From contig JAQTIE010000001.1 in the NCBI GenBank assembly GCA_029433475.1, positions 62,001 through 126,000 on the forward strand: a stretch of DNA of 64,000 nt. Direction: 5' to 3'. Shown here piece after piece: positions 25,331 through 53,998 of this stretch (position 1 is the first letter of the stretch; every line of letters begins with the position of its first letter). The translations under genes were made by a program, and so were the position numbers. A model generated the notes under the pieces. It was given only the letters and a program-made list of their open reading frames with translations, searched no databases and was not told where the DNA came from. Source of the stretch: Neisseriaceae bacterium ESL0693. Its GTDB lineage: Bacteria > Pseudomonadota > Gammaproteobacteria > Burkholderiales > Neisseriaceae.

Positions 25331-25340
25331 GGTTTATCCC

Positions 25341-27350: not shown

Positions 27351-27482
27351 ATTAAGGGTTTTGGGATGAGTTCACACTGAATTATCCTTAAGGATGGCTA
27401 AAATCCACGCTATTGATGTTAGCCATTGATTAAAATACCCACCGTACCCACCATATGAGTGATTTAATAAGGGATTGAGATT

Positions 27483-28470: not shown

Positions 28471-29282
28471 GCGTAACGGCATCTGTTTATCATAGTAATA
28501 TATGCATATTGGTTTATTTATTACTTTAAAGTGATAATTATTGCAGATTAATATCTATTTTTAGTAGGCTATGGTATTAATATTATTGATATTTATCAGT
28601 ATTTTAATTTTCTGAATAAGCAAACAGTAATAAAATTATCCATAAATTACCTGATTTAATAAAGTGCACTGTAATTGTTAATCAAATACAATATTTCTTT
28701 TAAAAAATTATCATAAATATATAAATATTATGGTTGCTCTGGCTAGATCATTATTTTAAAATAATACCATAGCATTAAATGATTAAAGTCTGGAGGTAAT
28801 TTTATTAATCCTGATCACTGTTTATCTGCATATTTAAAATAATATTGTTGTTTTTACATTGTATCACCCTGAATTAATCGAAATAAATGACAGGCCGGTA
28901 TCCATAAGATTGATTTACTGGTTTGATTTGTCAATTTATTTTTTATTTGTCTGACTGTTTAATATATTTGATTCTTATTAAATTTTTTAGTCATAACAGT
29001 TACCCTGGAATACAGTTTTCCTGTGTGCGTTAATGGATATATGAATGATTTAATCAGCATAATTCTGTTTATCAAGCTTAAATCCTAACATTTCACGCAA
29101 TATTCGGCTTATTTTCAATCAAGCCATTACTTAAACCACAGATGGGTTTAAGTAAATAAATCATGTGTATTGATCCTGGGGATAATATTTTTTAAAACGG
29201 CTTTGATTCAACATATCATTAATTTATTAATGATTTAAATTGATCGTTAACCACCCGTTATTTATCATTTTGGAATCTATCA
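28471..29282. other. long AT-rich 5' region of the first giant adhesin
   Basis: About 810 non-coding, AT-rich bases. No ORF, RNA or repeat array is recognised. The last ~20 bases before the adhesin ATG are nearly identical to those before the second adhesin (TTGGAATCTATCAATG against TTGGAACCTATCAATG). The length suggests a complex promoter or a long 5' leader. Confidence 0.5.
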
Positions 29283-32200
29283 ATGAATAAAATTTATCGT
29301 GCTGTATGGAATGAAAATAAACAAACCTGGGTGGCCGCTTCCGAGTTGGCCAAAGGTCGGGTTAAATCAAATTTAACCATTGCACCCAAAGATATAAAGC
29401 GTAAAAACCGCTGGTGGGGATTAATGAAACTGGCTTTTATTGCCGGTCTGATTCAGTTGCAGTTTTGTACTTCGCTCTCCTTTGCTTCCAATATTGCCCT
29501 TATCGGCAGTAATTCCAACAGTACCACCGAGGTAGGCACCAGTTTTGATAATGGCACAGGCTATGGTCATGGCAGCCATGGTTCTGTGGTGCTGGCCGGC
29601 GATGATGATCAATGTGGCGCCGATAAGGTACAAGGGCGCCGTGGGCTGACCAGCGGCATGACGGCATTGGCACAGTATTTACGCTTTGCCAACAACACCA
29701 CTTTATCAGGAAAATACCATCCTTATGGTACTTCCCAGGACGTACAAAAATGGAGCGGCAGCGGCATGACAACCTCTGCTGATGCAACCGATAAAACCTA
29801 TGTGGGTTATACAGGACCGAGTACTACCGGCGGAGAAGCAAATGCTTTGCCTGATGCCTATGGTGTGTATTCATTTGCTTATGGCTGTGGCAGTTATACC
29901 GAAGGCAATTACTCCGTGGCTTTTGGCAGTAATGCCACGGCTCTGGGTGGCGGTGCCATGGCGTTTGGTGTATCGGCACTGGCCTCATCACCGGCCAGTA
30001 TTGCATTTGGTGATGATTCTGAAGCCACCGGTACTTCAGCGGTAGCGGTGGGATCGATTGCCAATGCCCAGGGTGAAGGCAGTGTGGCCATGGGTTTGAA
30101 TGCTCAGGCAGTGGGTGCGGATGCCGATATACCGATGGCACCAGACGCCAGCAAAGACCCTGCGGCCGGTAAAAATTTAGACAGCATGAATCCTTTTGCC
30201 AGTGAAAGTACCATTGCCCATTCGGCAACCGCCATTGGTAACAGTGCTTTGGCCAATGGCTCTTCAGCAACCGCAGTGGGTAATGTGGCGCAAGCTACTG
30301 GTACTTCAACTGTGGCCGTGGGTTATGCCGCCAAAGCCACTGCGGTTGGCGGAGTGGCTTTGGGGGGTAAATCGGTAGCCGCCACTGAAGCAGGTGTTAA
30401 GGGTTATGATGCTGCAACAGGCGTGGCTACCCAGCTTTCAGATGCGGCCTGGAGCAGTACAGCCGGTGCAGTATCGGTGGGTGATGCCGATCACAACATC
30501 ACCCGCCAGATCAATGGTGTGGCGGCCGGTCTGGCCGATACGGATGCGGTGAATGTGGCGCAGTTAAAAGGGCTGCATGATTCTGTTTCTAGCGGTATCA
30601 GCAATTTATCTGGCCGCAGCAATGATTTACAAACCGGGCTGGACGACGCCAATCAGAACATCAGCACGCTGCAAACCGGCTTATCTGATACCAATAGCAA
30701 TATCAGCACGGTACAAACCCATCTGGACAGCACCAATGATGCTGTCAGTGGTTTGCAGACAGATTTAAGTAATGCTACAGACAATATTTCCACGTTACAA
30801 ACCAGTCTGGATACCACCAATAATACCATCAGCGGTTTACAAACGGATTTAACTACAGCCAACAGCAATATCGATACATTACACAAGAATCTGGCCAGCA
30901 CAGATCAGAATGTCAGCCAATTACAGACTCATTTATCCGATACCGATCAGACCATGACTGAGCTGCAAGGCCATGTCACCGATACCCAGACCGATGTCGG
31001 TCATTTACAGCACAATGCATTACAGTGGGACGAAGAAGCGGGCGCATATGATGCCGGCCGTCTGGCAGATGCCGACGCTGAGACAAAAACAGCCGCCAAA
31101 ATCATTAATGTGGCTGATGGCAGCTTAAGCCAGGATTCAACCGAGGCAGTTAATGGCGGTCAGTTATTCACCACCAACAGCCATGTCAGCAGTTTATCTA
31201 CCACCGTGGCTACCGGTTTAGATGGTCTTAATACCGCCATCAATACAACCCAAACCGATCTGGTTGCATTATCCAGCAGCACTGCCGACAGCATCGGCCA
31301 GCTGTCAGCACAACTGGACACCAGCGTCAGTACCGTCAATAGTCATTTGACCGATACAGATGCGCATGTGTCAGCAGTACAACAGAATGCCTTGCAATGG
31401 GATGATGACTTGAAAGCCTATGATGCCTCGCATGGCAGCGCTGATGGACAGAAAATCACCCATGTGGCGGCCGGTAGGGTGGCCGCTGATTCCAGCGATG
31501 CGATTAATGGCAGCCAGTTATTCACCACCAATAGCCATGTCAGCAGTTTATCTACTTCAGTAGATCAGCAGATTGCTGGTGTGCATCAGGATGTGGCCTC
31601 TTTATCAACCACCGCAGCCGATGGGTTTAATCAGTTATCCACATCAATGGATAAACAATTTGCCGATGTTAATCAAAACCTGAGCTCTTTATCTACCTCG
31701 GCCGATGCCCATTTTAAAGATTTAACCGACAGTATCTCAACCATCACCAGCGATGGCCTCAATCAGGTGTCTACCGATGTCAGCACTTTGCAGAATAATG
31801 CCTTGCAATGGAATGATGACTTGAAAGCCTATGATGCCTCGCATGGCAGCGCTGATGGGCAGAAAATCACTCATGTGGCGGCCGGTAGTGTGGCGGCCGA
31901 TTCAAGCGATGTAGTCAATGGTAGCCAGCTCTATGATCTGTCTACCAGTACCGTCAGTCATATTAATACACTGACCAGTAATATACAGGATTTGAGTAAC
32001 GGCCTGAATCAGACCACCGATCAGTTGAATATTCTGTCTACCGCCACTGCCAGCAGTTTAAGCAGTGTCAACAGTAGTCTGAGCCGTGCGGATCATCGTC
32101 TGGATAGTTTGTCTACTTCAGCGTCAACCGGTCTGAATGGTTTGAGTAAAGACCTCACCACCACCAACAGCAATCTGACTTCGCTGTCCAGCAGTACTGT

Positions 32201-35200
32201 CGATCAATTGCATCAGCTGTCAACCACCACCGCCGGCAGCATCAGTACTTTGAATCAGGATCTGACCAGTACCGGCCAGCAACTGACCCAGTTGTCTACC
32301 ACTACCGCAACCAGTTTAAGTACATTGACCGGTGATTTGTCTGAAGCCAATGTCAATATATCCGGTTTACAGCAAAATGCATTGCAATGGAATCAGGATC
32401 TGGGTGCCTATGATGCAGCGCATAACAGTACCCGTCAGAAGATTACCCATGTGGCCGCGGGTGATGTAGCCGTTGATTCCGCCGATGCGGTCAATGGCAG
32501 TCAGTTGTATCAGACCAATACGGATGTGGCTCAGTTATCCACAGCTGTGGATAAACAGTTTGCGAATGTTAATCAGGGTTTAAGTTCTTTATCTACTTCA
32601 ACCGATGCTCACCTTAAAGATTTAACCGACAGTATCTCAACCATCACCAGCGATGGTCTGAATCAGGTTTCCGGCAATGTGGATCATTTACAGCAAAATT
32701 CATTACAATGGAATAATGATCTTAAAGCCTATGATGCCGCTCATGGCAGTACTGATGGGCAGAAAATCACTCATGTGGCGGCCGGTAGTGTGGCGGCCGA
32801 TTCGAGCGATGCAGTCAATGGTAGCCAGCTCTATGATTTAACTGCCAGCACAGACAGAGGTTTCAATAGTTTATCCACAAGTTTAAGTCAGACCGATACC
32901 GATGTAGGCAATTTATCAAAAAGTCTGGGTACTACGGTAGCGCATGTGGCGCAGTTGTCCGATTCAGTATCCACAGGTTTGAGCGAGGTACACAGCAATC
33001 TGGCCGCCACCGATGCCAATGTGACCGGCTTACAGCAAAATGCCTTACAGTGGAATGATGATTTAAAGGCTTATGATGTTGCCCGCAGCAGCATCAACCA
33101 GAAAATCACCCATGTGGCCGCGGGTGATGTGGCCGCTGATTCGAGCGATGCAGTCAATGGTAGCCAATTATATGATTTAACGACTGATACAGCCAATCAT
33201 TTTACTGATGTAGAAGACAATTTATCGACCACCAATACCGTTTTGACCCATTTGTCCAGCAGTACTTCTGCCGATGTCAGCAGCCTGTCTACCAGTATTA
33301 ACAGTGTCAATAGCAGTCTGATTGACACCAATACCCAGCTGCAATTGACCAATACCAACTTGCAGCATGTCACTGATGATCTGAGTACCACCAACAGTCA
33401 ATTGAGCAATGTGACCCAATGGACCGCTTCCCAGTTACAAACCACCAACAGTCATCTGACCGATTTGTCGACCAGTACCGCCGGCAGCATTAATCAACTC
33501 AATGCCGGTCTGAATGATGCCAACAGTCAGTTAACCAGCTTATCCACCCAGACTTCAAGTGGTCTGAGTAGTCTCAGTCATGATTTAGCGAATACCCATC
33601 AGCAGCTGGACGGTTTACAGCAAAACAGCTTGCAATGGAACAGCCAGCAAGGTGCTTATGATGCCGCCGGTGCCGATGGCAGTGCCCGACAGATTACCCA
33701 TGTGGCCGAAGGTCGGGTAGAAAAAGGTTCAACCGATGCCATTAACGGTGAGCAATTCTATGATCTGTCCACCAGTACCTCGGCCGGTTTAAACAGTTTG
33801 TCTACTGGTCTGAGCAGCATGAGTCATGATTTACTCAGTACCACCAATGACGACTATGACAGTTTGTCTGCTTCCCTTAATGATGCCGATGCCGATATTG
33901 CCGATTTACAAAGCCACAGTTTGCAATGGCGCGATGACGTGGGCGGTTATGATGCCAGCCATAATGATCAGAATCAGAAAATTACCCATGTGGCTGCCGG
34001 AGACGTCAGTGATGCTTCAACCGATGCCATTAATGGTGCCCAGCTCAATACCCTGGCAACCGCAACTGATCATCGTTTCAATGAATTATCCGGCGGCTTA
34101 AGCCAGACCAACGATACGGTCAACAGCGTGACCCGCAGTCTGGGGGATACCATCACCCGAGTAGCCGAACTGACAGACACAACCTCTACCGGTATCCATG
34201 ATCTCAGTACTCAGGTAGCCGCAACCCAGGATAATGTGGCTTTATTACAGCAAAACAGCCTGCAATGGGATGATAGCAGCCAGGTTTATGATGCCGCTCA
34301 TGCGGGGACAACGGCAAAAATCACCCATGTGGCTGCGGGCGATGTAGCGGCGGATTCAACCGATGCCGTTAATGGCAGCCAGCTGTATGACCTGACTACC
34401 GTTACCCAGGACAATATTCACAGTCTGTCTACCGGCCTGAGTCATACCCTCACTGATCTGACCACAACCAACAGCCAGCTGAATCAATTGTCTACCACTA
34501 CCGGCAACAGCATCAGTACACTGAATCAGGATTTACTGACCAGTAACACCCATATCGCTGCATTAGAACAGAACACGTTACAATGGAATCAAGACACCCA
34601 TGCCTATGATGCCGCTCATGGCACCAGTCAGCCGCAGCGCATTACCCGGGTAGCGGCCGGCGAAGTGAGTGACACTTCAACCGATGCCATCAATGGTGCC
34701 CAATTACAGGCAACCAATGAGGCGATACAGCAATTATCGGGTATTCTGGGGACTTCAGCGGCTGATGCAGGAGAAACCGGCACCAGTAAACCAGTCTATA
34801 CCACCACCAATGCCCAAGGTGAAACCCTCACGGCCAACACCGTCAATAAAGCATTGAATAACCTCTATCAGGGCGGTTTGCAATCGATACATGTTAACAA
34901 TAGCGGTAACGATTCAATCGCCACCGGTAAAGATGCAATCGCCATTGGTGATGGTGCCAAAGCATCTGGTGACCAGAGTTTCAGTATCGGCACAGGCAAT
35001 GTGGTCACCGGCAATCATTCCGGTGCCATCGGTGATCCGAATACCATCCATGGTACCGCCACCTATGCGCTGGGGAACAACAACAATACCGGTACGGCTG
35101 ACCATTCCATGGTACTGGGCTCTGAAAACAGCATCAGCAATTCAGCCGACAATCCGGTCAGCGGTGATCTGGTGGTGGGTAATAACGCCAAGGTGGTTAA

Positions 35201-36878
35201 TGCCAGCAACAGCATGATTGTCGGTAACAATGCCTACATGGCGGCAGACAATGGTCTGGCACTGGGTAATCAGACGGCAGTAACCGGTATTGCCGGTATT
35301 GCTGCCGGCCAGAATGCCAGTGTACTGGCAGACAATGGCATCGCATTGGGCACAAATGCACAGGCAGCCAATACGGCCAGTGTGGCTTTGGGTTTTGCCG
35401 CCAAAACCACTGTAGATGATGGCGTGGCTCTGGGCAGTGAATCTGTGGCCAATACCGCTGCCGGTGCCATCGGCCTGGGTGCACCGCAACAAAAAGACAT
35501 CAGTTTGTCTGCTGCCTGGCAAAGCACACGCGGCGCCGTGTCTGTGGGGGATATGAATCAGGACATTACCCGTCAGATTACCGGTGTGGCTGCCGGTACC
35601 GAAGATACCGATGCGGTTAACGTGGCACAATTAAAAGCCTTCACCAGCGATCTTTCCACTTCTTTGAATGATACATTAGCCAATTCCATCTCCACCGGTT
35701 TAAACGGTCTGCAAACCGATTTGTCCACAGTTAATACCTCACTTGTGGATTTACAGCAGCAGGCATTACAACTCAATGGCAAAGACTATGATGCCCGAAA
35801 CCATATTATCGGTAATGTGGCTGATGGCCGGCTGGCTGCTGATTCACACGACGCCGTAAATGGCAGTCAACTGGCCAGCGTACGCGATGCTTTGCAAGCG
35901 GACATTAATAAAACCAATGAACGCATTGATTATTTGGCCGATATACCCTCTGTGCCGCCTGAAGAGCTGACCAGCCTCAGTACCAGTACCGCGGCCAGTC
36001 TGGACGCCACCCACAATGCGTTGGCTACCGGCCTGGGTGGAGGTGCTGCTTATGATGATCAGGGTCAGTTTATTGCCCCGCAATACACCACCACCGCAGC
36101 TGATGGCTCCAGCCTGACTGCTCATAATGTGGCCGATGGTTTACACAACCTCTATCAGGGAGGTAGTCAGGCCATGCATGTGAATAGCCGGCAGGATTCA
36201 GTCGCTAAAGGTAAAGATGCTGTAGCCATCGGTAGTCAGGCACAGGCCAATGGTGATTTTTCCATTGCCATGGGTAGTCACGCCAGTACCGCCAGCCAGG
36301 CTCATGATGCCATAGCCATTGGTACCAATACTTCGGCCACTCAAAATGGCGGCGTGGCACTGGGCAGCGGTTCCGTGGCCAGTGTGGCGGCGGGTGTCAG
36401 TGGTTATGTGCCTGCTGGTGCAACAGATGCTCAGATGAGTACCATTGACGCTACCCGCAGCACGCAGGCCGCCGTTGCTGTCGGCAATGCCGATGGCGGT
36501 ACTTATCGCCAGATTACCGGTGTGGCCGCTGGCACCAATGACAGCGATGCGGTCAATGTGGCCCAGCTAAAAGCGGTTAATAATCAAATGACCCAGATCA
36601 ATCAGTATGTCAATAATATCGATAACCGTATTGATCATGTTGAGCGCAAAGCCTATTCCGGTACCGCACTGGCTCTGGCTTTATCCGGCGCCTATCTGCC
36701 GGCGTTAAATGGTGGCGAACAAGCCGTCGGCGTTGGCGTGGGTTCCTACCAAGGCTATGCTGCCGTTGGTGTTAACTATAAAGCATTGAATAATCATGGT
36801 GATGTTTCATGGGGTGCGGGTATATCGTCTACCGGACACGAATTTGGCCTCAATGCCGGCTTAGGTTTTAAATGGTAA
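29283..36878 (+). CDS. giant trimeric autotransporter adhesin (YadA-like, type Vc), 2531 aa
   Basis: A surface adhesin that forms a lollipop trimer in the outer membrane. It begins with an extended signal peptide (MNKIYRAVWNENKQTWVA, residues 1-18; hydrophobic core ~47-62, cleavage near FASN). The head (~150-400) has YadA left-handed repeats (AVAFGSNA, SVAMGLNAQ). A HIM-type motif (ITRQINGVAAGLADTDAV) joins the stalk (~430-1830). The stalk is a Ser/Thr-rich coiled coil with repeated LSTS and about ten LQWxxxxxxYDA-ITHVAAG-DAVNGSQLY modules. A second head-like block (~1870-2090) and a short stalk lead to the C-terminal anchor (YSGTALALALSGAYLPALNGG... ending LNAGLGFKW). Two Cys in the N-terminal head are shared with the second adhesin. 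The following gene is its paralogue. Ligand unknown. Confidence 0.93.
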   Translation: MNKIYRAVWNENKQTWVAASELAKGRVKSNLTIAPKDIKRKNRWWGLMKLAFIAGLIQLQFCTSLSFASNIALIGSNSNSTTEVGTSFDNGTGYGHGSHGSVVLAGDDDQCGADKVQGRRGLTSGMTALAQYLRFANNTTLSGKYHPYGTSQDVQKWSGSGMTTSADATDKTYVGYTGPSTTGGEANALPDAYGVYSFAYGCGSYTEGNYSVAFGSNATALGGGAMAFGVSALASSPASIAFGDDSEATGTSAVAVGSIANAQGEGSVAMGLNAQAVGADADIPMAPDASKDPAAGKNLDSMNPFASESTIAHSATAIGNSALANGSSATAVGNVAQATGTSTVAVGYAAKATAVGGVALGGKSVAATEAGVKGYDAATGVATQLSDAAWSSTAGAVSVGDADHNITRQINGVAAGLADTDAVNVAQLKGLHDSVSSGISNLSGRSNDLQTGLDDANQNISTLQTGLSDTNSNISTVQTHLDSTNDAVSGLQTDLSNATDNISTLQTSLDTTNNTISGLQTDLTTANSNIDTLHKNLASTDQNVSQLQTHLSDTDQTMTELQGHVTDTQTDVGHLQHNALQWDEEAGAYDAGRLADADAETKTAAKIINVADGSLSQDSTEAVNGGQLFTTNSHVSSLSTTVATGLDGLNTAINTTQTDLVALSSSTADSIGQLSAQLDTSVSTVNSHLTDTDAHVSAVQQNALQWDDDLKAYDASHGSADGQKITHVAAGRVAADSSDAINGSQLFTTNSHVSSLSTSVDQQIAGVHQDVASLSTTAADGFNQLSTSMDKQFADVNQNLSSLSTSADAHFKDLTDSISTITSDGLNQVSTDVSTLQNNALQWNDDLKAYDASHGSADGQKITHVAAGSVAADSSDVVNGSQLYDLSTSTVSHINTLTSNIQDLSNGLNQTTDQLNILSTATASSLSSVNSSLSRADHRLDSLSTSASTGLNGLSKDLTTTNSNLTSLSSSTVDQLHQLSTTTAGSISTLNQDLTSTGQQLTQLSTTTATSLSTLTGDLSEANVNISGLQQNALQWNQDLGAYDAAHNSTRQKITHVAAGDVAVDSADAVNGSQLYQTNTDVAQLSTAVDKQFANVNQGLSSLSTSTDAHLKDLTDSISTITSDGLNQVSGNVDHLQQNSLQWNNDLKAYDAAHGSTDGQKITHVAAGSVAADSSDAVNGSQLYDLTASTDRGFNSLSTSLSQTDTDVGNLSKSLGTTVAHVAQLSDSVSTGLSEVHSNLAATDANVTGLQQNALQWNDDLKAYDVARSSINQKITHVAAGDVAADSSDAVNGSQLYDLTTDTANHFTDVEDNLSTTNTVLTHLSSSTSADVSSLSTSINSVNSSLIDTNTQLQLTNTNLQHVTDDLSTTNSQLSNVTQWTASQLQTTNSHLTDLSTSTAGSINQLNAGLNDANSQLTSLSTQTSSGLSSLSHDLANTHQQLDGLQQNSLQWNSQQGAYDAAGADGSARQITHVAEGRVEKGSTDAINGEQFYDLSTSTSAGLNSLSTGLSSMSHDLLSTTNDDYDSLSASLNDADADIADLQSHSLQWRDDVGGYDASHNDQNQKITHVAAGDVSDASTDAINGAQLNTLATATDHRFNELSGGLSQTNDTVNSVTRSLGDTITRVAELTDTTSTGIHDLSTQVAATQDNVALLQQNSLQWDDSSQVYDAAHAGTTAKITHVAAGDVAADSTDAVNGSQLYDLTTVTQDNIHSLSTGLSHTLTDLTTTNSQLNQLSTTTGNSISTLNQDLLTSNTHIAALEQNTLQWNQDTHAYDAAHGTSQPQRITRVAAGEVSDTSTDAINGAQLQATNEAIQQLSGILGTSAADAGETGTSKPVYTTTNAQGETLTANTVNKALNNLYQGGLQSIHVNNSGNDSIATGKDAIAIGDGAKASGDQSFSIGTGNVVTGNHSGAIGDPNTIHGTATYALGNNNNTGTADHSMVLGSENSISNSADNPVSGDLVVGNNAKVVNASNSMIVGNNAYMAADNGLALGNQTAVTGIAGIAAGQNASVLADNGIALGTNAQAANTASVALGFAAKTTVDDGVALGSESVANTAAGAIGLGAPQQKDISLSAAWQSTRGAVSVGDMNQDITRQITGVAAGTEDTDAVNVAQLKAFTSDLSTSLNDTLANSISTGLNGLQTDLSTVNTSLVDLQQQALQLNGKDYDARNHIIGNVADGRLAADSHDAVNGSQLASVRDALQADINKTNERIDYLADIPSVPPEELTSLSTSTAASLDATHNALATGLGGGAAYDDQGQFIAPQYTTTAADGSSLTAHNVADGLHNLYQGGSQAMHVNSRQDSVAKGKDAVAIGSQAQANGDFSIAMGSHASTASQAHDAIAIGTNTSATQNGGVALGSGSVASVAAGVSGYVPAGATDAQMSTIDATRSTQAAVAVGNADGGTYRQITGVAAGTNDSDAVNVAQLKAVNNQMTQINQYVNNIDNRIDHVERKAYSGTALALALSGAYLPALNGGEQAVGVGVGSYQGYAAVGVNYKALNNHGDVSWGAGISSTGHEFGLNAGLGFKW

Positions 36879-36918
36879 GCTGCTTATTCATTTCTTGAAT
36901 ACGGTTGTAATACATTCT

Positions 36919-36952
36919 CCCGTTTCCTGATTTCAGGAGACGGGATTTTTTT
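36919..36952 (+). terminator. terminator of adhesin 1
   Basis: CCCGTTTCCTGA (36919-36930) pairs with TCAGGAGACGGG (36933-36944, one G-T pair) and is followed by a run of seven T (36946-36952). Confidence 0.9.
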
Positions 36953-37902
36953 GTATTGAAGACAGGATAACTGCTCTTTATTTGACTCATCAGGATCAAT
37001 AAAAACGCAACCAAAACCATAACTGAACATAAATTCTGATCCATTGAAAACACAACATTAAAATCATAAATAGTAACTTATTTATATATAAATAAAAAAA
37101 TGGAGCTATAAATCCAATAATGTCACTTTAATAAAAAATATAATAATTATCAAAACTTTAAAAACTCTATCGAATATAAAATTAATATAAATAATCTAAA
37201 TTAAACACAGTAAAGAAATAACATTACTTATGTTAATTTAGTGTTAAGCGGGAAAAATCTAATTCATATAACTATGTTGATGAATTAGCAATCAGAATTA
37301 AAAAAGCAGTGCTTTATATGAAAATTTATGTTGATTTAAATTTACCTACATTTTAGAATGAGCCACTTTGTTAAGGGAATTTCAATACAAAGGCATATTA
37401 TTTTGTGTATGTTCATGCTGATAACCCGATAAAGATTATGAGCATGATATTGCTATGTGCATTGTATAAACCTGATTAAATCAGAATGAATGACAGTAAT
37501 CAGTAATGGATATGATGATTATGTTTTTAATTTATGTATTTGATAAGGCTTTATTTTTGACGTTGCATATAGGGGTTTGTATCAGATTTCCGACTTAAAA
37601 ATAGTTATACCGAATACACCATTATTCCAGATTGAATTTAATTAACCGATCAATACAGTTGAATTTACAGGCTGTTATTTTTATGTGTCCAACCATGAAA
37701 AATTGTAAGTATGCCTGTTTTTTCCTGAAGAAACAGGCCAGCAAACTGTTAATGCTCAGGTTAATCATTCATTTGTAGTTAACCTGGAAAATAAATGTTT
37801 TCAAACAAAGCATGTGATTAAGTTAGTTAGTTTATTAACGTATTAAAAAATTGGATTAATACGAAGTTATTAAACAGTTATTTACCTTTTTGGAACCTAT
37901 CA
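36953..37902. other. long AT-rich region between the two adhesin genes
   Basis: About 950 bases with no credible gene. The adhesin-1 terminator and the near-identical segment before the second ATG bound a very AT-rich stretch. It probably carries an independent promoter for adhesin 2. Confidence 0.5.
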
Positions 37903-45171: not shown

Positions 45172-45205
45172 TGCATACCAATGATTGATGTTTGTTGATC
45201 ACATT

Positions 45206-45241
45206 ATCCCGTTTTCCGATGTTTGGAAAACGGGATTTTTT
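45206..45241 (+). terminator. terminator of adhesin 2
   Basis: ATCCCGTTTTCC (45206-45217) pairs with GGAAAACGGGAT (45224-45235) and is followed by a T run. The remaining bases to 45477 hold no gene. Confidence 0.9.
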
Positions 45242-45477
45242 ATATTGCTCAATATATGGATACAAGCCAGGGCAATGATTTTGTGGGGTACTAATATCTT
45301 TTATACCTTAGTAAACAAACAAAAAACGGCTAAAATCTTTTAAATACAAGACTCAATGCCGTTTCATGCCAAAATCTGAAAATGATTTATTTTGCACCAA
45401 AATGATTATAAAATGCGTATTCTTTTATACCAGAATGATCAAGAATAATCATTTTTTAAATAAGTTTTAAACCCGCT

Positions 45478-46185
45478 TTAAATTCTTCGCCCGAACCATT
45501 CTACCTTGCCGACAATAGCTACATTTTCATTTTTCAAATCAAGTGTAAAGGATTCATATTCTTTGTTTGTTGGCTTTACTAGCAATTTGCCCTCCGGCAA
45601 CACTTGAGTTCTTTTAACAAGAAAATTTTTCCCAACTCTTAAAACGTATATGCCGTCTTCTGGCTTATTTTGTGAGTGATTAACCAAAATGACATCACCA
45701 TCGTTTAATAAGCCCTGCATTGAGTCACCTTTGATAGATGTCACGCTTAAATCCTCTGGGTTAGCTGCGATAAAATTATCAATCCAGTATTTTCTAAATG
45801 CTACATGAAAAAGCGGAGGTTTTGCATCGCCCCCGTGAATCGGAAGCGCGTCGAGATCATATCGTGGAATAAAAACAAAATCGTTAATATTAATTTTGTC
45901 ATTAGTAGTGGGTGGAGGCTCTAGTGCTTTAATAGACGTATTGCTGACTTCATTATTAGTATTTTTGAGCTTGGCTCCTTCTCCCGTTGCAAGCCATACT
46001 AAATGTACACCCGCGGCGTTAGCAATATTAATCAGATTTGTTGTGCTTGGTTCTGCGCCATCTTTAACCCATTTTGCTGCCGTAGGATATGCGACATCTA
46101 CAATTTTTGATAGCGTTGAAATACTGCCTAAAATTTCTACAACCTCTCTTATTCTTTGAGAGAATCCGACGTTAAAGTTTTCCAT
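45478..46185 (-). CDS. LexA/CI-like repressor (XRE-type HTH + S24 peptidase)
   Basis: A 235-residue phage-type repressor. The N-terminal ~70 residues form a helix-turn-helix (LSKIVDVAYPTAAKWVKDGAEPS). A variable linker follows, then a C-terminal S24/LexA-like domain with the catalytic Ser in IKGDSMQGLLNDGDVILVN (~residues 148-166) and Lys in FLVKRTQ (~190). IHGGDA near residue 116 is a possible self-cleavage site. Such repressors lose activity by RecA-stimulated autocleavage. No other phage gene is nearby. It sits between the second adhesin and the accessory genes, with a candidate operator just upstream. Adhesin-locus control is a guess; a lone prophage remnant is the alternative. Confidence 0.85.
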   Translation of the reverse strand: MENFNVGFSQRIREVVEILGSISTLSKIVDVAYPTAAKWVKDGAEPSTTNLINIANAAGVHLVWLATGEGAKLKNTNNEVSNTSIKALEPPPTTNDKININDFVFIPRYDLDALPIHGGDAKPPLFHVAFRKYWIDNFIAANPEDLSVTSIKGDSMQGLLNDGDVILVNHSQNKPEDGIYVLRVGKNFLVKRTQVLPEGKLLVKPTNKEYESFTLDLKNENVAIVGKVEWFGRRI

Positions 46186-46204
46186 TATTTTTGCTCATTG
46201 AAAT

Positions 46205-46237
46205 ACCGATACTGATTGGGTTAATATCGGTGATATT
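46205..46237 (-). promoter_or_regulatory. candidate repressor operator
   Basis: ACCGATA (46205-46211) and its complement TATCGGT (46225-46231) are 20 bp apart centre to centre, about two helical turns. The second arm overlaps AATATC-GGT-GATATT (46223-46237), itself an exact inverted repeat. The site is 20-50 bases upstream of the repressor start, suiting autoregulation. Confidence 0.4.
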
Positions 46238-46743
46238 GAAACCATACAGGCCAATCGTTGACTTCAGCATGACGCGACCTCTTATCTTGCTGATATATAA
46301 ATAACATAAAAATAAAATTTTAAAATAAAAACAAAATTTAATGAAATAATACATTAGATAAAATCATATGATTAAATCATTTATATATATGATATTTAAT
46401 ATAAAACCTATAGTCAGCGTCAGACATGCAGTGGGTGGTGTTTTACTGGTAACATCATTTAAAATCATCACCATGAGTGATATATTATTTGAATAGGAAT
46501 TTTATCTATTCATTTTTATAAAATTTTCTTGATATAAGTCAAATTAAAATCGAATATTTGATTTTATTTTGCACTTATTTAATAATAACGGTTGTTTAAA
46601 AAAAATATTTTAGTAAAATGAAAAAAATTATTTTATTTTTAATACCTGAAAAATTTTTAGTTAAAAAGTCATTTTAAACGCCGTTATAGTGTGTGAATAA
46701 CAGAATCAGTATATAAAAATTTTTAAGTAATTTAGGAATTGGC
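46238..46743. other. AT-rich divergent intergenic, no gene seen
   Basis: About 500 AT-rich bases between the repressor and the Roadblock-like gene, holding both promoters. The AT-palindrome AAAATCGAATATTTGATTTT lies near 46548-46567. No coding frame is convincing. Confidence 0.4.
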
Positions 46744-47103
46744 ATGAAATACGAAGCGGTTGTGGCGCAATTACTGAACGTAGAAGGAGCCCTGGCAGCA
46801 GGTGTGGTCGATTACGATAGCGGTATGTTGTTGGCCGGTAGTTCAATCAATGCCATTGATCTGGAAATTTCGGCTATCAGCAGTACCGAAGTGGTGCGGG
46901 CTCAGATCAAAAACATGCAAATGTTACAATTGAATGACGTTATTGAAGATATTTTGATCACTTTAAATAACCGTTATCATCTTATCCGGCCATTGAGAGA
47001 ATTAAACAGTCTATTCTTATATTCTGTACTGGATAAACAGAAGGCCAGTCTGGCTTTATCCCGCAGAGCACTGATTGATGTGGAAAAACAAATGCTCATT
47101 TAA
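46744..47103 (+). CDS. Roadblock/LC7-domain-like protein
   Basis: A 119-residue cytoplasmic protein. The N-terminal pattern VEGALAAGVVDYDSGMLLAG (residues ~13-32) matches the opening strand-turn-strand of bacterial Roadblock/LC7 proteins. A helix with SSTEVVRAQIKNMQ, a strand IEDILITLNNRYHLIRPL and LFLYSVLDKQKASLALSRRAL complete the alpha-beta fold. Such proteins regulate small GTPases (MglB-type) or act as scaffolds; no GTPase gene is seen here. AGGA lies seven bases before the ATG. It has its own terminator. Location suggests a link to the adhesin locus, unproven. Fold assignment is from pattern only. Confidence 0.6.
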   Translation: MKYEAVVAQLLNVEGALAAGVVDYDSGMLLAGSSINAIDLEISAISSTEVVRAQIKNMQMLQLNDVIEDILITLNNRYHLIRPLRELNSLFLYSVLDKQKASLALSRRALIDVEKQMLI

Positions 47104-47145
47104 ATAGAGTCGGCATAATGCCTCTGCAAATACAGGTATAAAAAT

Positions 47146-47171
47146 GGCGTCGTTTTTCGGCGCCTGTTTTT
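47146..47171 (+). terminator. terminator of the Roadblock-like gene
   Basis: GGCGTCG-TTTTT-CGGCGCC (47146-47164, one G-T pair) is followed by TGTTTTT. Confidence 0.8.
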
Positions 47172-47424
47172 ATATCTGGCTGTTATGGGCAGCTTGATTT
47201 TATTTATCAGCATGCGTTGAATCGGTTGCCGTGTTCTATTTCACAATACCCACAAGTGAACGAAAATGCATTACTTTTCAATCATGCATTAATCATCTTT
47301 TTACCCATTATCCAAACTAAAATCATCAAAAGACAAACGTGTCAAGCATGACATCACCAATTTGACCAGATAATGATCAAAAAGTATATTAATTTGTATA
47401 TATTTATTAATGATAGAGTAGATA

Positions 47425-47454
47425 TTAGCGTATTAAAATAAAATACGTTATAAT
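47425..47454 (+). promoter_or_regulatory. possible promoter of the 913-aa gene unit
   Basis: TATAAT at 47449-47454 has a weak -35 (TTAGCG, 47425-47430) at 18-base spacing. It lies about 80 bases before the 37-codon ORF. The rest of 47172-47533 is AT-rich, with nothing else recognised. Confidence 0.3.
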
Positions 47455-47533
47455 CAATAATTAAATTTTGCATTAAACATACTTAACTTAATACTTAATG
47501 TTTACTGATGGATATTGAAATCAAGGCCGATTA

Positions 47534-47647
47534 ATGGGTCTTTATGACTGGATCAGGGAGGTTTTCCGGCCTAAGTCATTAGGCAAAATAATACTGGTTT
47601 CGCGCCATTGTGTTGCCATTTTTGCCGCTACTGATGAAATAATTTGA
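47534..47647 (+). CDS. possible 37-aa leader/small protein
   Basis: ATG GGT CTT... to TGA at 47645-47647 encodes a 37-residue peptide beginning MGLYDWIREVFRPKSLG, then a mildly hydrophobic segment. AAGG lies ten bases upstream. The stop is two bases before the ATG of the next large gene, so translation would be coupled. No family is recognised. It might be a leader peptide or the frameshifted original 5' end of the following gene. Confidence 0.4.
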   Translation: MGLYDWIREVFRPKSLGKIILVSRHCVAIFAATDEII

Positions 47648-47649
47648 GC

Positions 47650-50391
47650 ATGGGTTTGAATACAACCACCAATACTAACGATAATTATCTGTCAATGCCG
47701 CTTGCTACCGAAAAGCATGATGTGACAGATACTAAAAAAATCAACCTGTTGACATCAGAGTCAACAGGCTATACTTGCTTGGCGTCAAGTTTAAGCGCCA
47801 TGCATATGCCTGACACAACTCCCAAAACAGGATTATCTGATCTGGCTGCTTTGCCAGATCATGAGGTTAACGTTAAAAAATCCATCTTATCAGCGCAGCA
47901 GAATATACAGCTTCATGATCTGGCCTCAGCATTTGCTGTTGCAGACAATCTGTCTCAAACATCAGCCACTCTATCCGGTATGGCAGGACTGACTTTAAAT
48001 ATCGGTACAGATGTAACAGATATTTTGTCGGCCAAATCGACTCATCTGTCGCGGGAAGATAAGCAACTGGCTGATGGATTAAATGAAATTTCAGGATCCA
48101 TCTCCGGTGTCAGTGTGGCCGCACCGCAAAGTCACCTGAGCGACAATCAGGCTGATATACAGAGAGCTGCATTATCGCTACCTCTGGCTGCCGGCGAAAT
48201 GGCTATAGCCTCAAAATCGAATGATGATTATTTTTCTGATGTAGAGCCGCAACAAATATCAGAACTAAACAGTATCCTACACAATATTCATTCAACCCAG
48301 CTTAACCAACCGGTACACACCATCTCCAGCGTAAGTGAAACGCCGCATTCATTGCCGCAAGATGTACACCCATTGCCTGCTGACTGTGCAGTTACCTTGA
48401 ATCAGTCTTATCCGGTTGCCGATCTGGCTCTGAATAATGGTTCGGATATCTATCCCGCGTTAGCCGAAATGCCAATGCAGCAACAAACAATGGCGCTGGA
48501 TACCGATCAGCTTGAATTAAAAGCGGCAGCAATCAAACCATTGTCAATTTCTGAAGAATTTCAGCAACCGATGATTTCTTCATGTCAGCAAAACCTTGCT
48601 GAAGGGCTGACTGATTGCCTCGACAGCCATATCAAGGCCATCAATAATAAGCTTTCGGTTTTTGTAGCAGAATCTCCATCTGTCAGTCATATCGAAGAGA
48701 TGACCCATAACCAAATGCAATGGGCAGCTGCTGACTCACTTATGGTTGATGAAACGCCGCAAACTACACAATCCCTATTGGTGCACTCAGCACAACAGAC
48801 CTTGCAGACACTGGTTACAGAAATTGCAGTGAGTGACACACCATCACTGGTGACGGAAGAGCACATTGAACCATGGCAACAAGAGCAGACAACAACGCTG
48901 GCTGTTATTGAGACGAACGTGAATGATCCGTCTGAAAGTAATTATGATTTATCGGCTAGAGCAAAAGAGAATGCCGGTTTAGCCACTGATTGTGATGCTG
49001 TAGCTATTGCTAAAACTCAGTCAGCAGCAAAAGAAGAATTACACAATCTTCAGGATACTGAAGAAGGGTCTGTCAGTAATTCTGCTGTTATGCCGCAAAC
49101 GCCTGTATCAGAAATACAGACGGCCATTAATACCCCGCTTACTTTGCCCACACAGACTGAAATCCAGCAGGATACAGCCGTATCGAAGCTTGGGCATGCA
49201 ATGATGCAATCAGAGGTTGATCAGCAGGCAACATGTCTTGATACTATAGATACATCCATTCATCGCGCTTTGGGTGATCAGCATGACGCACAGTCAGTGA
49301 TGGCTCCATCAGACAAATCAGCTCAAGATGAAATCATGTTGGCTACGTTGCCTGCACAGGATGAACACTTAATTACTGATGATTCCCGCCCCCTTGGGCA
49401 TAAGCTGCCTGCGTCTGCCGCACTGCTAACTGAAACCAGTCTGGCTTCGCTGACTGAACTGCCATTTTCAGGCAGCCGACAATCTGCATCATCAGTACAA
49501 TTATCCGCTTATGATGCCGGTGATCAGGCTTCATTTACTGATGTGCCTGTGTCTGGGCTCTATCAATCTTTGGCACCTCTGGCAGAGCAGCCGGAAAATA
49601 TATTGAGCCATAATGAATTCAACGGTTTATCGGCACTGATTCCGGCACATACACCATCAGCCGAGAATTTATCTGAATGTGATATTGCCACTTCATGTGG
49701 CCTGTCTGCCAATGGTTTACAGCATCAGCCACAGCTATCTGCCCTTACTCATCAGCATAATAATACTGCCAATACATGGGCATTATCCGGTCTGCCATCG
49801 GCGGTCAAGCAGCATGAATTACAGACTCAGTTAGATGAAGGCTTGCACAGCCAGCAATTACATCAAGGGCTCCATGATACGATGCTTGACCATGCAGCTA
49901 CTTTATTGGCCGATATTCCCGTGGCACATACCGATGTACAGAAAGAGACTGACCTGCAAGATAAAAGTGATGGTGTGGCAGCTGGTCACCAGACCACCAC
50001 GGCTGATCCGGACGGCGCTGATGGGCAGGTAGCCAATACAAAGGCATCAACAGCACAGCCGCCTGGTTCAGATAGTGACATCATATCCCAAATGGGATAT
50101 AAACCATTATCCGTAAAAGAGATAGCGCATGATATTTCGATGGCGGAACAAAATTATGCCGGAACCAGCTTATCTCTGGCTTTGTCAGGCAATCATTTAA
50201 CTGTTTTTCGTATTGGCAAACACCTTATTGGCCGTTGTGTCGGCATTTCCCGGAATTACTGTGAACCGGACGTTATTCAGCAGGATATAGACAGTAAAAA
50301 GTATTATTGCAAGGTTTTGCTCCATTCGCCGCAAAGCATGACTTCGATGGTGCTGCATTCATTGGATTTGAGTAGTAAAGTATTGTATTGA
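47650..50391 (+). CDS. unknown 913-aa protein with YadA-anchor-like C terminus and no signal peptide
   Basis: A large, polar, Ser/Thr/Gln-rich protein of low complexity. ATG 47650 is preferred to TTG 47644. The N terminus (MGLNTTTNTNDNYLSMPL) is hydrophilic, with no ESPR, signal peptide or membrane segment. There is no regular coiled-coil repeat. The last ~78 residues start YAGTSLSLALSGNHL and contain IGRCVGISRNY. They align by eye with the adhesin anchors, which start YSGTALALALSGAYL and contain VGVGVGSYQGY and are 74 residues long. The protein ends in an aromatic residue (Tyr). It lies directly before three DUF2827 genes. It may be a diverged adhesin that lost export, or a cytoplasmic partner or decoy of the adhesins. 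Function unknown. Confidence 0.65.
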   Translation: MGLNTTTNTNDNYLSMPLATEKHDVTDTKKINLLTSESTGYTCLASSLSAMHMPDTTPKTGLSDLAALPDHEVNVKKSILSAQQNIQLHDLASAFAVADNLSQTSATLSGMAGLTLNIGTDVTDILSAKSTHLSREDKQLADGLNEISGSISGVSVAAPQSHLSDNQADIQRAALSLPLAAGEMAIASKSNDDYFSDVEPQQISELNSILHNIHSTQLNQPVHTISSVSETPHSLPQDVHPLPADCAVTLNQSYPVADLALNNGSDIYPALAEMPMQQQTMALDTDQLELKAAAIKPLSISEEFQQPMISSCQQNLAEGLTDCLDSHIKAINNKLSVFVAESPSVSHIEEMTHNQMQWAAADSLMVDETPQTTQSLLVHSAQQTLQTLVTEIAVSDTPSLVTEEHIEPWQQEQTTTLAVIETNVNDPSESNYDLSARAKENAGLATDCDAVAIAKTQSAAKEELHNLQDTEEGSVSNSAVMPQTPVSEIQTAINTPLTLPTQTEIQQDTAVSKLGHAMMQSEVDQQATCLDTIDTSIHRALGDQHDAQSVMAPSDKSAQDEIMLATLPAQDEHLITDDSRPLGHKLPASAALLTETSLASLTELPFSGSRQSASSVQLSAYDAGDQASFTDVPVSGLYQSLAPLAEQPENILSHNEFNGLSALIPAHTPSAENLSECDIATSCGLSANGLQHQPQLSALTHQHNNTANTWALSGLPSAVKQHELQTQLDEGLHSQQLHQGLHDTMLDHAATLLADIPVAHTDVQKETDLQDKSDGVAAGHQTTTADPDGADGQVANTKASTAQPPGSDSDIISQMGYKPLSVKEIAHDISMAEQNYAGTSLSLALSGNHLTVFRIGKHLIGRCVGISRNYCEPDVIQQDIDSKKYYCKVLLHSPQSMTSMVLHSLDLSSKVLY

Positions 50392-50461
50392 ATGAGATTT
50401 ATGGGAAAAATTAAGCAGTAGGAATCTTATTTATTTAAATAAACTTCAGATATGGATTGAT

Positions 50462-51610
50462 ATGCGAATTGGCATTTCTGTTATTACACATGCTGGTCAA
50501 AACATTTGGGAAAACGGCATGGGACAGAATATTATTTTTCTGGCTCAAAGTTTAAAAGCAGTTCCCTTTGTTAAATCAGTGGATTTGATTGATGTGGGTG
50601 ATCAACAGGCCATGCCTGCTCAGGTTGATTTGGACGCATTTGATATGCGTCTCATGAAGCAGGATCAGGCAGGTGATATGGTTGATGTGATTATTGAATT
50701 GGCCGGTGCCCTGGATCCGAAATGGCTGGCTTTGCAACGAGCCAGAGGCAAAAAGGTAGTTTACTACTGTGTAGGCCAGCCTTATGCGGCATTGGCCGAA
50801 AGCAGTATTTTTGATAAAGAAGGCTACTTTCCGCCAACAGATCATTGTGATGAAATCTGGTTACTGCCTAAAGACCAGATGTATGTACCCATGATGCGCA
50901 CCTTGTATCGCTGTCCGGTATACATTGCTCCTTATCTGTGGGCGCCTACCTTTATCCGCAAACGGGAACAGGAAGCCAGTGCTCATGCTTTGCATTATGG
51001 CTGGGAATCCAACACAACAGATAACGGCTTGCGTAAACCATTAAAGGTTGCCATTTTTGAACCCAATATTTCCGTGGTCAAAGCAGCCTCTATACCCATG
51101 CTGGCCTGTAATGAAGCCTATCGTGCCGAATCTGAATCAATCGCCATGATGCACGTACTCAATGCGTTGCACATGAAAGACCATTTAACCATGTTGCATC
51201 TGGCCAATTCATTGAATCTGGTACAGCAGAAAAAAGCCTGTTTTTATGGTCGCCATGATGTGGTTGGTTTTATGGCACAACATGCCAATGCCGTGGTCTC
51301 ACATCAATGGTGTAATGATCAGAATTACATGTATCTGGATGTTTTATATGGTCATTATCCACTGATTCACAATTCCAAATGGTTAAAATCCTTTGGTGTG
51401 GGATATTACTATCCTGATTCTGAAGCGGTGGAAGCCGGCAGACAGATCCGTACTGCCTGGCAACACCACCAGACTCATCTGGCTGAGCAGCGTGAAAAAA
51501 CACAGGTTCTTTTTGATGCCGTTGCTCCTTTAGCTGCAGCCAATATACAAGCCCATACACAGTTATTAACGCAATTGTGTTCTGATCGTCCAGAATTATT
51601 AAGAGGTTAA
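50462..51610 (+). CDS. DUF2827 protein, putative GT-B glycosyltransferase (copy A)
   Basis: A 382-residue cytoplasmic protein. It opens with RIGISVITHAGQNIWENGMGQNIIF, the DUF2827 signature (W-x-NG-x-x-QN). Middle motifs are VIIELAGALDP, DEIWLLP and YLWAPTFI. The C-terminal half has IFEPNISVVKAASIP, then CFYGRH, VVSHQWCNDQNYMYLD and YPLIHN. The last blocks resemble the nucleotide-sugar half of GT-B enzymes (acidic residue followed by a G-x-Y/P-L/I turn). The exact function of the family is not established. Three tandem copies follow the adhesin region. Copy B begins three bases after this stop, so they form one operon. In this copy, WCN replaces the WEN of the others. Confidence 0.8.
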   Translation: MRIGISVITHAGQNIWENGMGQNIIFLAQSLKAVPFVKSVDLIDVGDQQAMPAQVDLDAFDMRLMKQDQAGDMVDVIIELAGALDPKWLALQRARGKKVVYYCVGQPYAALAESSIFDKEGYFPPTDHCDEIWLLPKDQMYVPMMRTLYRCPVYIAPYLWAPTFIRKREQEASAHALHYGWESNTTDNGLRKPLKVAIFEPNISVVKAASIPMLACNEAYRAESESIAMMHVLNALHMKDHLTMLHLANSLNLVQQKKACFYGRHDVVGFMAQHANAVVSHQWCNDQNYMYLDVLYGHYPLIHNSKWLKSFGVGYYYPDSEAVEAGRQIRTAWQHHQTHLAEQREKTQVLFDAVAPLAAANIQAHTQLLTQLCSDRPELLRG

Positions 51611-51613
51611 ATT

Positions 51614-52744
51614 ATGCTTTCGGTAGGTGCACTTCGTATCGGAATTTCGCTTTTTGTGCGCAAAGGCGGTCAGTCGATGTGGGAAAATGGTATTTTTCAA
51701 AACTGTATTTTCCTCGCCATGCTATTACAAAAATCGCCTATTGTTGAAGACGTGGTCTTGGTGATTGGCGGTGGCGATGCTGAGGAACAGGAAATCAGTG
51801 ATTTTCTCAAAGATTCACCTGTACCCTACATTGATATGGAAACAGCGGCAGCCAAACTGGATGTCATGATTGAAATGAGTGCCCAGCTGGATCAGGCCTG
51901 GGTGGTGAATTTCAAGGCCAAAGGCGGCAAAGTCGTGAGTATGCGTGTTGGTAATGATTATGTGATCGATATAGAACGCATGATTTTTGATAAACCGGCA
52001 GCTTTGCTGATTACCAATGCGCCTTATGATGAAATATGGACATTGCCGGAGTATGAAAAAACCTGCATGCCCTATTATGCCAGTGCGTATCGTAAACCTG
52101 TACGGATTATGCCGCATCTGTGGAGTCCGGTGATTTTAAATAACGCACTCACCGCACTGGAGCAGGGGAAGGTATTTGGCTATCAGCCCGGGCGTGCCCG
52201 CTGGCGTGTCGGTATGTTTGAACCCAATGTATGCATGGTAAAAACCAGCTACATTCCTTTACTGATCAGTGAAAATACGCATCGCCAGAATCCCAATATG
52301 CTTGAGCATATTTATGCATGCAATACCTATAAACTGAAAGACCATCAGGTTTTCAATGATTTTGCCAATAGCCTGGATATTGTACGGCAGGGTCTGACCT
52401 CATTTGATGGCCGTTATCCTATCTGGCAGGTATTGTCATTATTCTGTGATGTGGTGATCTCCCACCAATGGGAAAATGCCCAGAATTATGTTTATTATGA
52501 GGCCCTGTATGGTGGCTATCCTCTGATTCATAATTCGCATTTACTGGCTGATTGTGGTTACCGCTATCATGATTTCGATTGTGAGGAAGGTGCGGAACAA
52601 TTGATCAGTGCTTATCAGAATCATGATGCCAATTTAGCCATCTATCGACAAAAAGCGCGTGCTTTTCTGGCAACACTGGATCCGCAGGCAGAGAATAATA
52701 TCCGTTGTTATACGGATGCGTTACTTAATTTATATCAACCTTAA
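51614..52744 (+). CDS. DUF2827 protein, putative GT-B glycosyltransferase (copy B)
   Basis: 376 residues, same architecture as copy A: LRIGISLFVRKGGQSMWENGIFQN (signature), VMIEMSAQLDQAW, YDEIWTLPEY, HLWSPVIL, MFEPNVCMVKTSYIP, FDGRYP, VVISHQWENAQNYVYYEALYGGYPLIHN (core acceptor/donor-site-like block, shown by ISHQWEN and YPLIHN). AGAGG precedes the ATG by seven bases. Divergence from copies A and C is high outside the motifs, so the three probably differ in sugar or acceptor. Translational linkage with copy A is tight (3-base gap). Confidence 0.8.
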   Translation: MLSVGALRIGISLFVRKGGQSMWENGIFQNCIFLAMLLQKSPIVEDVVLVIGGGDAEEQEISDFLKDSPVPYIDMETAAAKLDVMIEMSAQLDQAWVVNFKAKGGKVVSMRVGNDYVIDIERMIFDKPAALLITNAPYDEIWTLPEYEKTCMPYYASAYRKPVRIMPHLWSPVILNNALTALEQGKVFGYQPGRARWRVGMFEPNVCMVKTSYIPLLISENTHRQNPNMLEHIYACNTYKLKDHQVFNDFANSLDIVRQGLTSFDGRYPIWQVLSLFCDVVISHQWENAQNYVYYEALYGGYPLIHNSHLLADCGYRYHDFDCEEGAEQLISAYQNHDANLAIYRQKARAFLATLDPQAENNIRCYTDALLNLYQP

Positions 52745-52834
52745 CAATAAGGTAAAAAAATTCATCAATTGCATGACATTATGGTCGTATTGATCATTAT
52801 TATGCATATTGGTTGTTTTTATATCGGGTCAACT

Positions 52835-53998
52835 ATGAGTTTATATACGGGTGCCGATAAACCATATCGCCGTTTGCGTATCGGCATTACCATTGGTCTG
52901 AACCACGCTCAGGAAACATTATGGAATAATGGTATTAAGCAAAATGCCGTTTTTCTGGCTGAAGCACTGAGAAATTGTCCTAATGTCATGAGTGTGGTAC
53001 TGGTCAATACCACCAATGTACCGATCAGCAAAAGCTTACCCTGGGATTTAACTCGCTGGCCGACACAAAGTCTTATTGAAACCAAGGATCAGCTGGATAT
53101 TTTGATTGAGCTCGGTGGCCAGATTGACCCTGAGCAGACGGCTTATTTAAAAAACCGCGGTGTTCATTTAATTTCATACTGCTGCGGCTTTGAATACGTG
53201 CACATGATGGAATCTGTGCTGTTCAGACGTGGTATGTGGGGCAGTAATCTCTTCATTAATCAGCGGTATGATGATATCTGGATGGTGCCTCAGGTTGCGA
53301 ATATCAGTCAGTCCTATTTTGAAGTATTCCGCCGACATAGTGCCCGTGTGGTTCCATTTGTGTGGAGTCCGGTCTTCATTACTCAGAAAGCAGCAGCATT
53401 ACCCGCTGAAGGGTTATGGCAGGCACCTGATGCGCAGCGTGGCTGGCGCTTGTCCATTATGGAGCCCAATATTGATGTAGTGAAATTCTGTCTTTACCCC
53501 ATTCTGATTGCCGAACTGATGTACCGTGCCCGTCCTGAAATGGTGGCCACCGTTCAGGTATGTAATAGCACTGCATTGGCAAAAGAATGTTCTGACTTCA
53601 TTGCATTGATGAATCAATTAGACATTGTGAAAGACAATAAGGCTGTTTTTACCGGACGCCATGAGACGCCCACTTTTCTGGCAAACCATACCGATGCCAT
53701 TATTTCCCATCAATGGGAAAATCCATTAAATTATTTTTATCTGGAAACCTGCTGGCAAGGCTATCCTTTGATTCACAATGCGGAGCTAGTGCCCAATCTG
53801 GGCTATTATTATCCTAAAAACGACGTTCAGGCCGGAATGCAGCAGCTTTACAGAGCCATGACGGAACATGCCGCCAATGCGCATCATTATATTACCCGCC
53901 AACGTCAGCATATAGCTCGTTTCTTACCGGATAATAGCCAATTGATCGCCGATTACACTGCTTTAATAGACGAAGTAAAAGCCAGACCCATTCGCTGA
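52835..53998 (+). CDS. DUF2827 protein, putative GT-B glycosyltransferase (copy C)
   Basis: 387 residues from the ATG at 52835 (MSLYTGADKPYRRLRIG), chosen because the conserved part starts at RLRIGITIGL. Earlier in-frame starts (TTG 52769, ATG 52781, ATG 52802) would add a short hydrophobic stretch with no convincing ribosome site. Motifs are LWNNGIKQNAVFL, ILIELGGQIDP, YDDIWMVP, FVWSPVFI, IMEPNIDVVKFCLYP, FTGRHE, AIISHQWENPLNYFYLE and YPLIHN. It is the last gene of the three-copy run and ends before a convergent dehydrogenase gene. Confidence 0.78.
   Translation: MSLYTGADKPYRRLRIGITIGLNHAQETLWNNGIKQNAVFLAEALRNCPNVMSVVLVNTTNVPISKSLPWDLTRWPTQSLIETKDQLDILIELGGQIDPEQTAYLKNRGVHLISYCCGFEYVHMMESVLFRRGMWGSNLFINQRYDDIWMVPQVANISQSYFEVFRRHSARVVPFVWSPVFITQKAAALPAEGLWQAPDAQRGWRLSIMEPNIDVVKFCLYPILIAELMYRARPEMVATVQVCNSTALAKECSDFIALMNQLDIVKDNKAVFTGRHETPTFLANHTDAIISHQWENPLNYFYLETCWQGYPLIHNAELVPNLGYYYPKNDVQAGMQQLYRAMTEHAANAHHYITRQRQHIARFLPDNSQLIADYTALIDEVKARPIR

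Follow-up and report, generated by a model that had tools for sequence, protein, structure and literature searches.

A DUF2827 locus beside giant adhesins

What do three tandem genes of the DUF2827 family do next to giant surface adhesins? The locus raising this question lies in Neisseriaceae bacterium ESL0693, on contig JAQTIE010000001.1, positions 62,001-126,000; this whole stretch of 64,000 nucleotides is referred to as the window, and all coordinates below are window positions. An earlier note on this DNA had named two trimeric autotransporter adhesins (TAAs), a repressor, a Roadblock-like gene, a 913-aa protein and three DUF2827 genes, and all these open reading frames (ORFs) were located in the window. 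We consider it likely that the three DUF2827 proteins, designated alpha, beta and gamma, form a cytosolic GT-B O-glycosylation module dedicated to the LST-rich stalks of giant TAAs (type Vc). The genes concerned are the following.

29283-36878, + strand: TAA 1, 2,531 aa; ESPR signal peptide, YadA head repeats, LST-rich coiled-coil stalk and YadA anchor; predicted glycoprotein substrate
37903-45171, + strand: TAA 2, 2,422 aa; domain order as in TAA 1; predicted glycoprotein substrate
50462-51610, + strand: DUF2827 gamma class, 382 aa; PF10933 E=1.2e-109; predicted GT-B glycosyltransferase
51614-52744, + strand: DUF2827 beta class, 376 aa; PF10933 E=4.2e-141; predicted GT-B glycosyltransferase
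52769-53998, + strand: DUF2827 alpha class, ORF of 409 aa counted from a TTG; PF10933 E=3.3e-137 over residues 38-400; predicted GT-B by homology

All three DUF2827 proteins match the whole PF10933 model above its cut-off. Their genes are closely spaced, with gaps of 4 bp and of about 25-90 bp, the second depending on the start of alpha, which is likely an ATG near 52835. The closest named relatives of the proteins belong to Snodgrassella, a genus of bee-gut symbionts (69-74% identity), to which the window is assigned, and the gene order near the DUF2827 genes agrees with that of other Snodgrassella genomes. Since a full TAA (~1,900-3,700 aa) terminates 34-98 bp 5' of the first DUF2827 gene in these genomes, the ancestral operon looks like a TAA followed by gamma-beta-alpha.

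Both giant ORFs match ESPR, YadA_head, YadA_stalk and YadA_anchor in Pfam and are thereby type Vc adhesins, with 14 YadA_stalk stretches in TAA 1 and 11 in TAA 2. The anchor (PF03895) is found with E=8.5e-7 in TAA 2 and E=1e-4, 0.1 bit short of the cut-off, in TAA 1. The two had been described as Ser/Thr-rich: this richness is real but only moderate (S+T content of 23.4% in TAA 1 and 26.3% in TAA 2), and what is informative is the recurrence of the LST/SLST motif. LST is present in 28 copies in TAA 1 and 26 in TAA 2, while SLST reaches 0.51 and 0.78 per 100 aa, respectively 34x and 43x over composition. Hydrophobic residues of TAA 2 recur with a coiled-coil-like periodicity of 3/7/11/14, and Ser and Thr would be exposed on the coiled-coil surface, which is compatible with this spacing. 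A third giant TAA of the same genome (2,540 aa; L176, contig 25; 18.6% S+T) is essentially devoid of LST and provides a within-genome natural control.

Predicted fold and classes of the DUF2827 proteins

The DUF2827 motifs had been read as those of a GT-B fold, a reading borne out for beta and gamma by structure prediction and Foldseek comparison. The AlphaFold2 model of beta, built from 75 aligned members, has a pLDDT of 92.7 and a pTM of 0.91; it matched GT-B glycosyltransferases with a best E of 3e-9, including BshA (TM 0.64), MshA, HepE, pneumococcal GtfA and OGT. The gamma model (pLDDT 88.0) shows the same fold and matched MshA (2e-10) as well as BshA, WaaG and GtfA (4pqg). For both proteins the matches to GT-B enzymes lie at E about 1e-9 to 1e-10 and TM about 0.6, the best being of GT4 type (BshA, MshA, WaaG); the protein O-GlcNAc transferases GtfA and OGT are also among them. 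The models thus assign a GT-B fold to beta and gamma, and alpha is predicted to share it by homology. Searches of PDB sequences with a DUF2827 protein or profile returned nothing notable, and the literature searched has one passing mention of this uncharacterised family.

A FastTree phylogeny of 212 DUF2827 sequences contains three clades, with one window copy in each; the deepest node of the beta clade has low support (28), and the most divergent beta copies are uncertainly placed. Loci typically carry one copy per class, in the order gamma-beta-alpha in 43 of 81 loci, and in six loci the TAA is placed between the beta-gamma pair and alpha. Alpha, beta and gamma appear to be ancient, non-redundant paralogue classes. 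Because 37 positions have the same residue in all classes, with conservation of 95% or more in each, none of the three looks dead, and each looks like an active, non-redundant enzyme; further positions are class-specific. The conserved E203, N205, K210, R267, H284, N291, H306 and N307 would be compatible with nucleotide-sugar binding and transfer. The motifs quoted in the earlier note are all present, and W-x-NG, EPN...K and H..N..NYxY...HN are kept in all classes; not all of the quoted forms are strict, the Glu of HQWEN being a Cys in the window's gamma copy. No signal peptide is evident in any DUF2827 protein, and we infer a cytosolic location.

Coupling of DUF2827 and TAA genes across genomes

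The link to the adhesins, previously drawn from position and composition, was examined by co-occurrence across genomes and came out positive. Profile or signal-motif matches reveal a TAA in the retrieved flanking sequence of 67 of 80 DUF2827 loci from named genomes. Four more loci have an SLST-rich ORF truncated where the contig stops, which brings those with a TAA or stalk fragment to 71 of 80; among the other nine, the flanks are in some cases short. When 300 genomes were sampled evenly from the order, six had DUF2827 and 29 a YadA anchor. Each of the six encodes TAAs (hypergeometric 5e-7 for 6/6 versus 29/300, relatedness ignored), and in four of them a YadA anchor lies at most 2.5 kb from DUF2827. 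No match above the DUF2827 family cut-off was obtained in 368 further genomes of the class. DUF2827 genes are also carried by conjugative plasmids, one of which is annotated with a YadA-like protein, OmpA, three DUF2827 proteins and a TPR protein, and in a record of B. cenocepacia a TAA of 2,742 aa with 3.43 SLST per 100 aa has four DUF2827 genes nearby. The genomic coupling of DUF2827 to TAAs is strongly supported.

Two side observations concern these loci. On a B. ambifaria conjugative plasmid (L315), the genes for the YadA-like protein, OmpA, three DUF2827 proteins and the TPR protein stand immediately upstream of a type VI secretion cluster. Some DUF2827 loci (L026, L032, L033, L041, L056, L086, L087) additionally contain glycosyltransferases of the GT34 family, a methyltransferase, and TPR proteins whose C-terminal half resembles a glycosyltransferase.

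DUF2827 tracks one type of TAA stalk

The most telling result is the association with stalk type: DUF2827 tracks one stalk type and not TAAs generally. The 62 DUF2827-adjacent TAAs have median values of 39.6% S+T and 3.29 SLST per 100 aa, against 19.0% and at most 0.07 in 29 control TAAs from 20 DUF2827-free genomes (Mann-Whitney 5e-15, nominal since rows share descent). Enrichment over composition amounts to 34x for SLST and 14x for LST in Burkholderiales, to 30x and 8x in Snodgrassella, and to 0x and 0.8x in controls. Three non-adjacent TAAs of one DUF2827 genome (G331) are without the motif, as are two further TAAs encoded in the window's genome. Three DUF2827-free Snodgrassella genomes lack any LST-rich TAA, and two of these are without any YadA stalk match. 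Beyond the main groups, adjacent stalks have 42-43% S+T in a distant family that carries two DUF2827 genes; in a Neisseriaceae genome whose single DUF2827 is divergent, the neighbouring TAA has 38.8% S+T, and SSAT repeats take the place of SLST. In one genome (G089) no TAA adjoins the DUF2827 genes, yet a distant TAA is SLST-rich.

These data bear on the possibility that the DUF2827 proteins are glycosyltransferases for another glycan (lipopolysaccharide, capsule or exopolysaccharide), the TAAs being adjacent as accessory surface genes of a shared variable region. GT4-type folds are indeed common in lipopolysaccharide and capsule synthesis, WaaG is among the matches of gamma, and further sugar enzymes occur in some DUF2827 loci. 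However, TAA adjacency recurs on chromosomes and plasmids of many genera, where usually nothing else is fixed beside DUF2827; the co-occurrence is with a single stalk type, not with TAAs overall; and G089 retains the pairing without adjacency. We regard such a role as unlikely.

A second possibility is that the TAAs are N-glycosylated in the manner of HMW1C, with DUF2827 acting on N-x-S/T sequons. NSS and NST stretches do exist in the stalk repeats, and HMW1C-type enzymes are GT-B and cytosolic (PMC3012730, PMC5303269). Sequons are nevertheless not enriched in DUF2827-associated TAAs (0.7-0.9x composition versus 1.2x in controls), whereas LST is enriched 8-14x. N-glycosylation was dropped on this ground, and we give it very little credence.

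The repeats could also be a mere expanded coiled-coil module and DUF2827 an unrelated hitch-hiker, in which case the stalks would carry no modification or would be substrates of a general periplasmic oligosaccharyltransferase such as PglL. O-glycosylation of the PglL type is known in Burkholderia and Neisseria, and the 3/7/11/14 spacing fits a coiled coil; moreover, the number of SLST repeats differs between strains (PMC2955633, PMC4021183). Coiled-coil stalks are general in TAAs, yet the motif is missing from the 29 control TAAs, and a hitch-hiker leaves unexplained why GT-B enzymes track the motif. This explanation seems to us distinctly improbable.

A model for stalk O-glycosylation

If DUF2827 forms a stalk O-glycosylation module, one paralogue would transfer a nucleotide-sugar-derived sugar onto Ser/Thr of the stalk repeats before Sec export, and the other two would lengthen the glycan or act at further sites. 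On reaching the surface, the trimer would be a sugar-sheathed fibre, and the sheath may make it stiffer, shield it against proteases or determine its binding. The data show family membership, the GT-B fold of two classes, the existence of three conserved classes, and the association of DUF2827 with TAAs and with their LST-rich stalks; glycosylation itself, the catalysis, the O-linkage, the donor sugar, the division of labour and any effect on adhesion in the bee gut are inferred.

Several points weigh against this model. The GT4 E-x7-E motif is not preserved in DUF2827: in the corresponding region, eight residues separate two Glu in alpha and beta, and the window's gamma copy has C...D. The DUF2827 locus has no constant gene for nucleotide-sugar synthesis. 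The compared loci are not phylogenetically independent; TAA and DUF2827 could co-travel in a single cassette for some other reason, and the LST repeats may simply be a stalk module that expanded in that lineage of TAAs. One genome (G360) has a second, non-adjacent TAA with some SLST. Lastly, two Snodgrassella genomes (G007 and G013; L317, L318) carry gamma and beta with no adjacent alpha, and their stalks have LSTST runs and zero SLST; the exact motif is thus loose.

Comparison with known adhesin glycosylation systems

The pairing had been likened to AIDA-I/TibA and to serine-rich repeat proteins. A glycosyltransferase dedicated to its own autotransporter is indeed shared with the BAHT systems (TibC and AAH with TibA/AIDA-I), in which the passenger is hyperglycosylated and the catalytic glycosyltransferase domain has been characterised (PMC4358343), but the likeness does not extend to the BAHT iron finger. 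No column reaches 80% Cys over all DUF2827 sequences, and the Cys columns of the single classes mostly differ, so that there is no shared iron finger. TibC is not among the best 50 PDB fold matches of beta, and three paralogues acting on a trimeric (type Vc) substrate contrast with one enzyme for a monomeric (Va) one.

GtfA and GtfB are dedicated GT-B O-glycosyltransferases of very Ser-rich fibrous Gram-positive adhesins, and GtfA is itself a fold match. Unlike these substrates, the DUF2827 partner is a Gram-negative outer-membrane adhesin, Sec-exported and self-inserting; at 380 aa, DUF2827 has no room for the extra domain of GtfA, and accessory Sec genes were not noticed at the DUF2827 locus. 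HMW1C-type N-glycosyltransferases resemble our proposal in that cytosolic enzymes act on adhesins before export, and one such enzyme is reported to be required for adhesion in Actinobacillus (PMC5303269). They differ in that N-x-S/T is not enriched in the DUF2827-associated TAAs, and Pfam reveals no recognisable relation to GT41.

The closest parallel on the substrate side is offered by the Burkholderia TAAs BoaA, BoaB, BMA1027 and BCAM2418, whose passengers have the same SLST repeats. These repeats were described in BoaA, BoaB and BMA1027 (PMC2955633, PMC4021183), while for BCAM2418 the composition had led to the suggestion that it is O-glycosylated (PMC7142374). As far as their available text goes, PMC2955633, PMC4021183 and PMC7142374 name no enzyme ('glycosyl' is absent from two of them); DUF2827 is the enzyme proposed here. 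Our model would explain these repeats, noted earlier without an enzyme, and gives the DUF2827 family a candidate function. It points to so far undescribed dedicated machinery, extending the known pairing of adhesins and glycosyltransferases. If it is right, TAAs own a dedicated glycosylation machinery in parallel to TibC/AIDA-I and GtfAB/SRRP, and the bee symbiont is a tractable model for TAA glycosylation.

Viral relatives

Full-length DUF2827 homologues (26-41% identity) are encoded singly or as tandem pairs by 77 viral contigs of IMG/VR (L237-L313), and PF10933 was confirmed in all eight tested. In the viral loci inspected, many DUF2827 genes lie among tail-like, collagen-like and other long repetitive fibre genes and apparent glycosyltransferases, a neighbourhood that fits a role on fibrous trimers. 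SLST is absent from the S/T-rich ORFs of these contigs, no DUF2827 was found in INPHARED at the tblastn cut-off, and PHROGs is without any DUF2827 family. We put forward only tentatively, as somewhat less than an even prospect, the broader idea that the DUF2827 proteins constitute a hitherto unrecognised protein O-glycosyltransferase family specialised for long trimeric fibres (the LST-rich TAA stalks of Burkholderiales and Neisseriaceae, and phage tail or collagen-like fibres), LST/SLST then being the first acceptor motif dedicated to O-glycosylation of type Vc adhesins.

Neighbouring genes

Three further ORFs lie between TAA 2 and the DUF2827 genes.

45478-46185, - strand: CI/S24-type repressor
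46744-47103: Roadblock/LC7-like ORF; PF03259 E=0.07, sub-threshold
47644-50391, + strand: 915-aa ORF (913 aa if counted from the ATG at 47650); C-terminal residues 838-873 YadA anchor-like

The earlier note had included all three in a wider system, but each fails the cross-genome comparison and none is a conserved part. No relative of the repressor, a candidate operon regulator, was present in those loci of other genomes that entered this comparison. The Roadblock/LC7 identity of the small ORF is itself doubtful (PF03259 at 13.3 bits versus a cut-off of 23), and the gene was rejected as part of the module: it occurs in 37 of 83 Neisseriaceae genomes, DUF2827-free ones included, and stands beside lpxC in related genomes. 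This small protein family is present in 10 of 12 sampled Neisseriaceae genera and usually adjoins lpxC in Snodgrassella. A Pgi gene next to the single DUF2827 of another genome (G068) was read as unrelated housekeeping.

The 913/915-aa ORF, taken earlier for an anchor mimic, has no homologue in 13 other Snodgrassella genomes, no Pfam match and no evident signal peptide. Its GC content by codon position is coding-like, and it ends 70 bp before the first DUF2827 gene, in the slot occupied by a full TAA in other Snodgrassella; it is possibly a decayed (relic) or recombinant TAA. Finally, the block of lpxC and its upstream neighbours (20855-28397 and 46744-53998) is inverted relative to other Snodgrassella (e.g. 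G006), with breakpoints at the TAA loci, and recombination between TAA genes may have driven this inversion.

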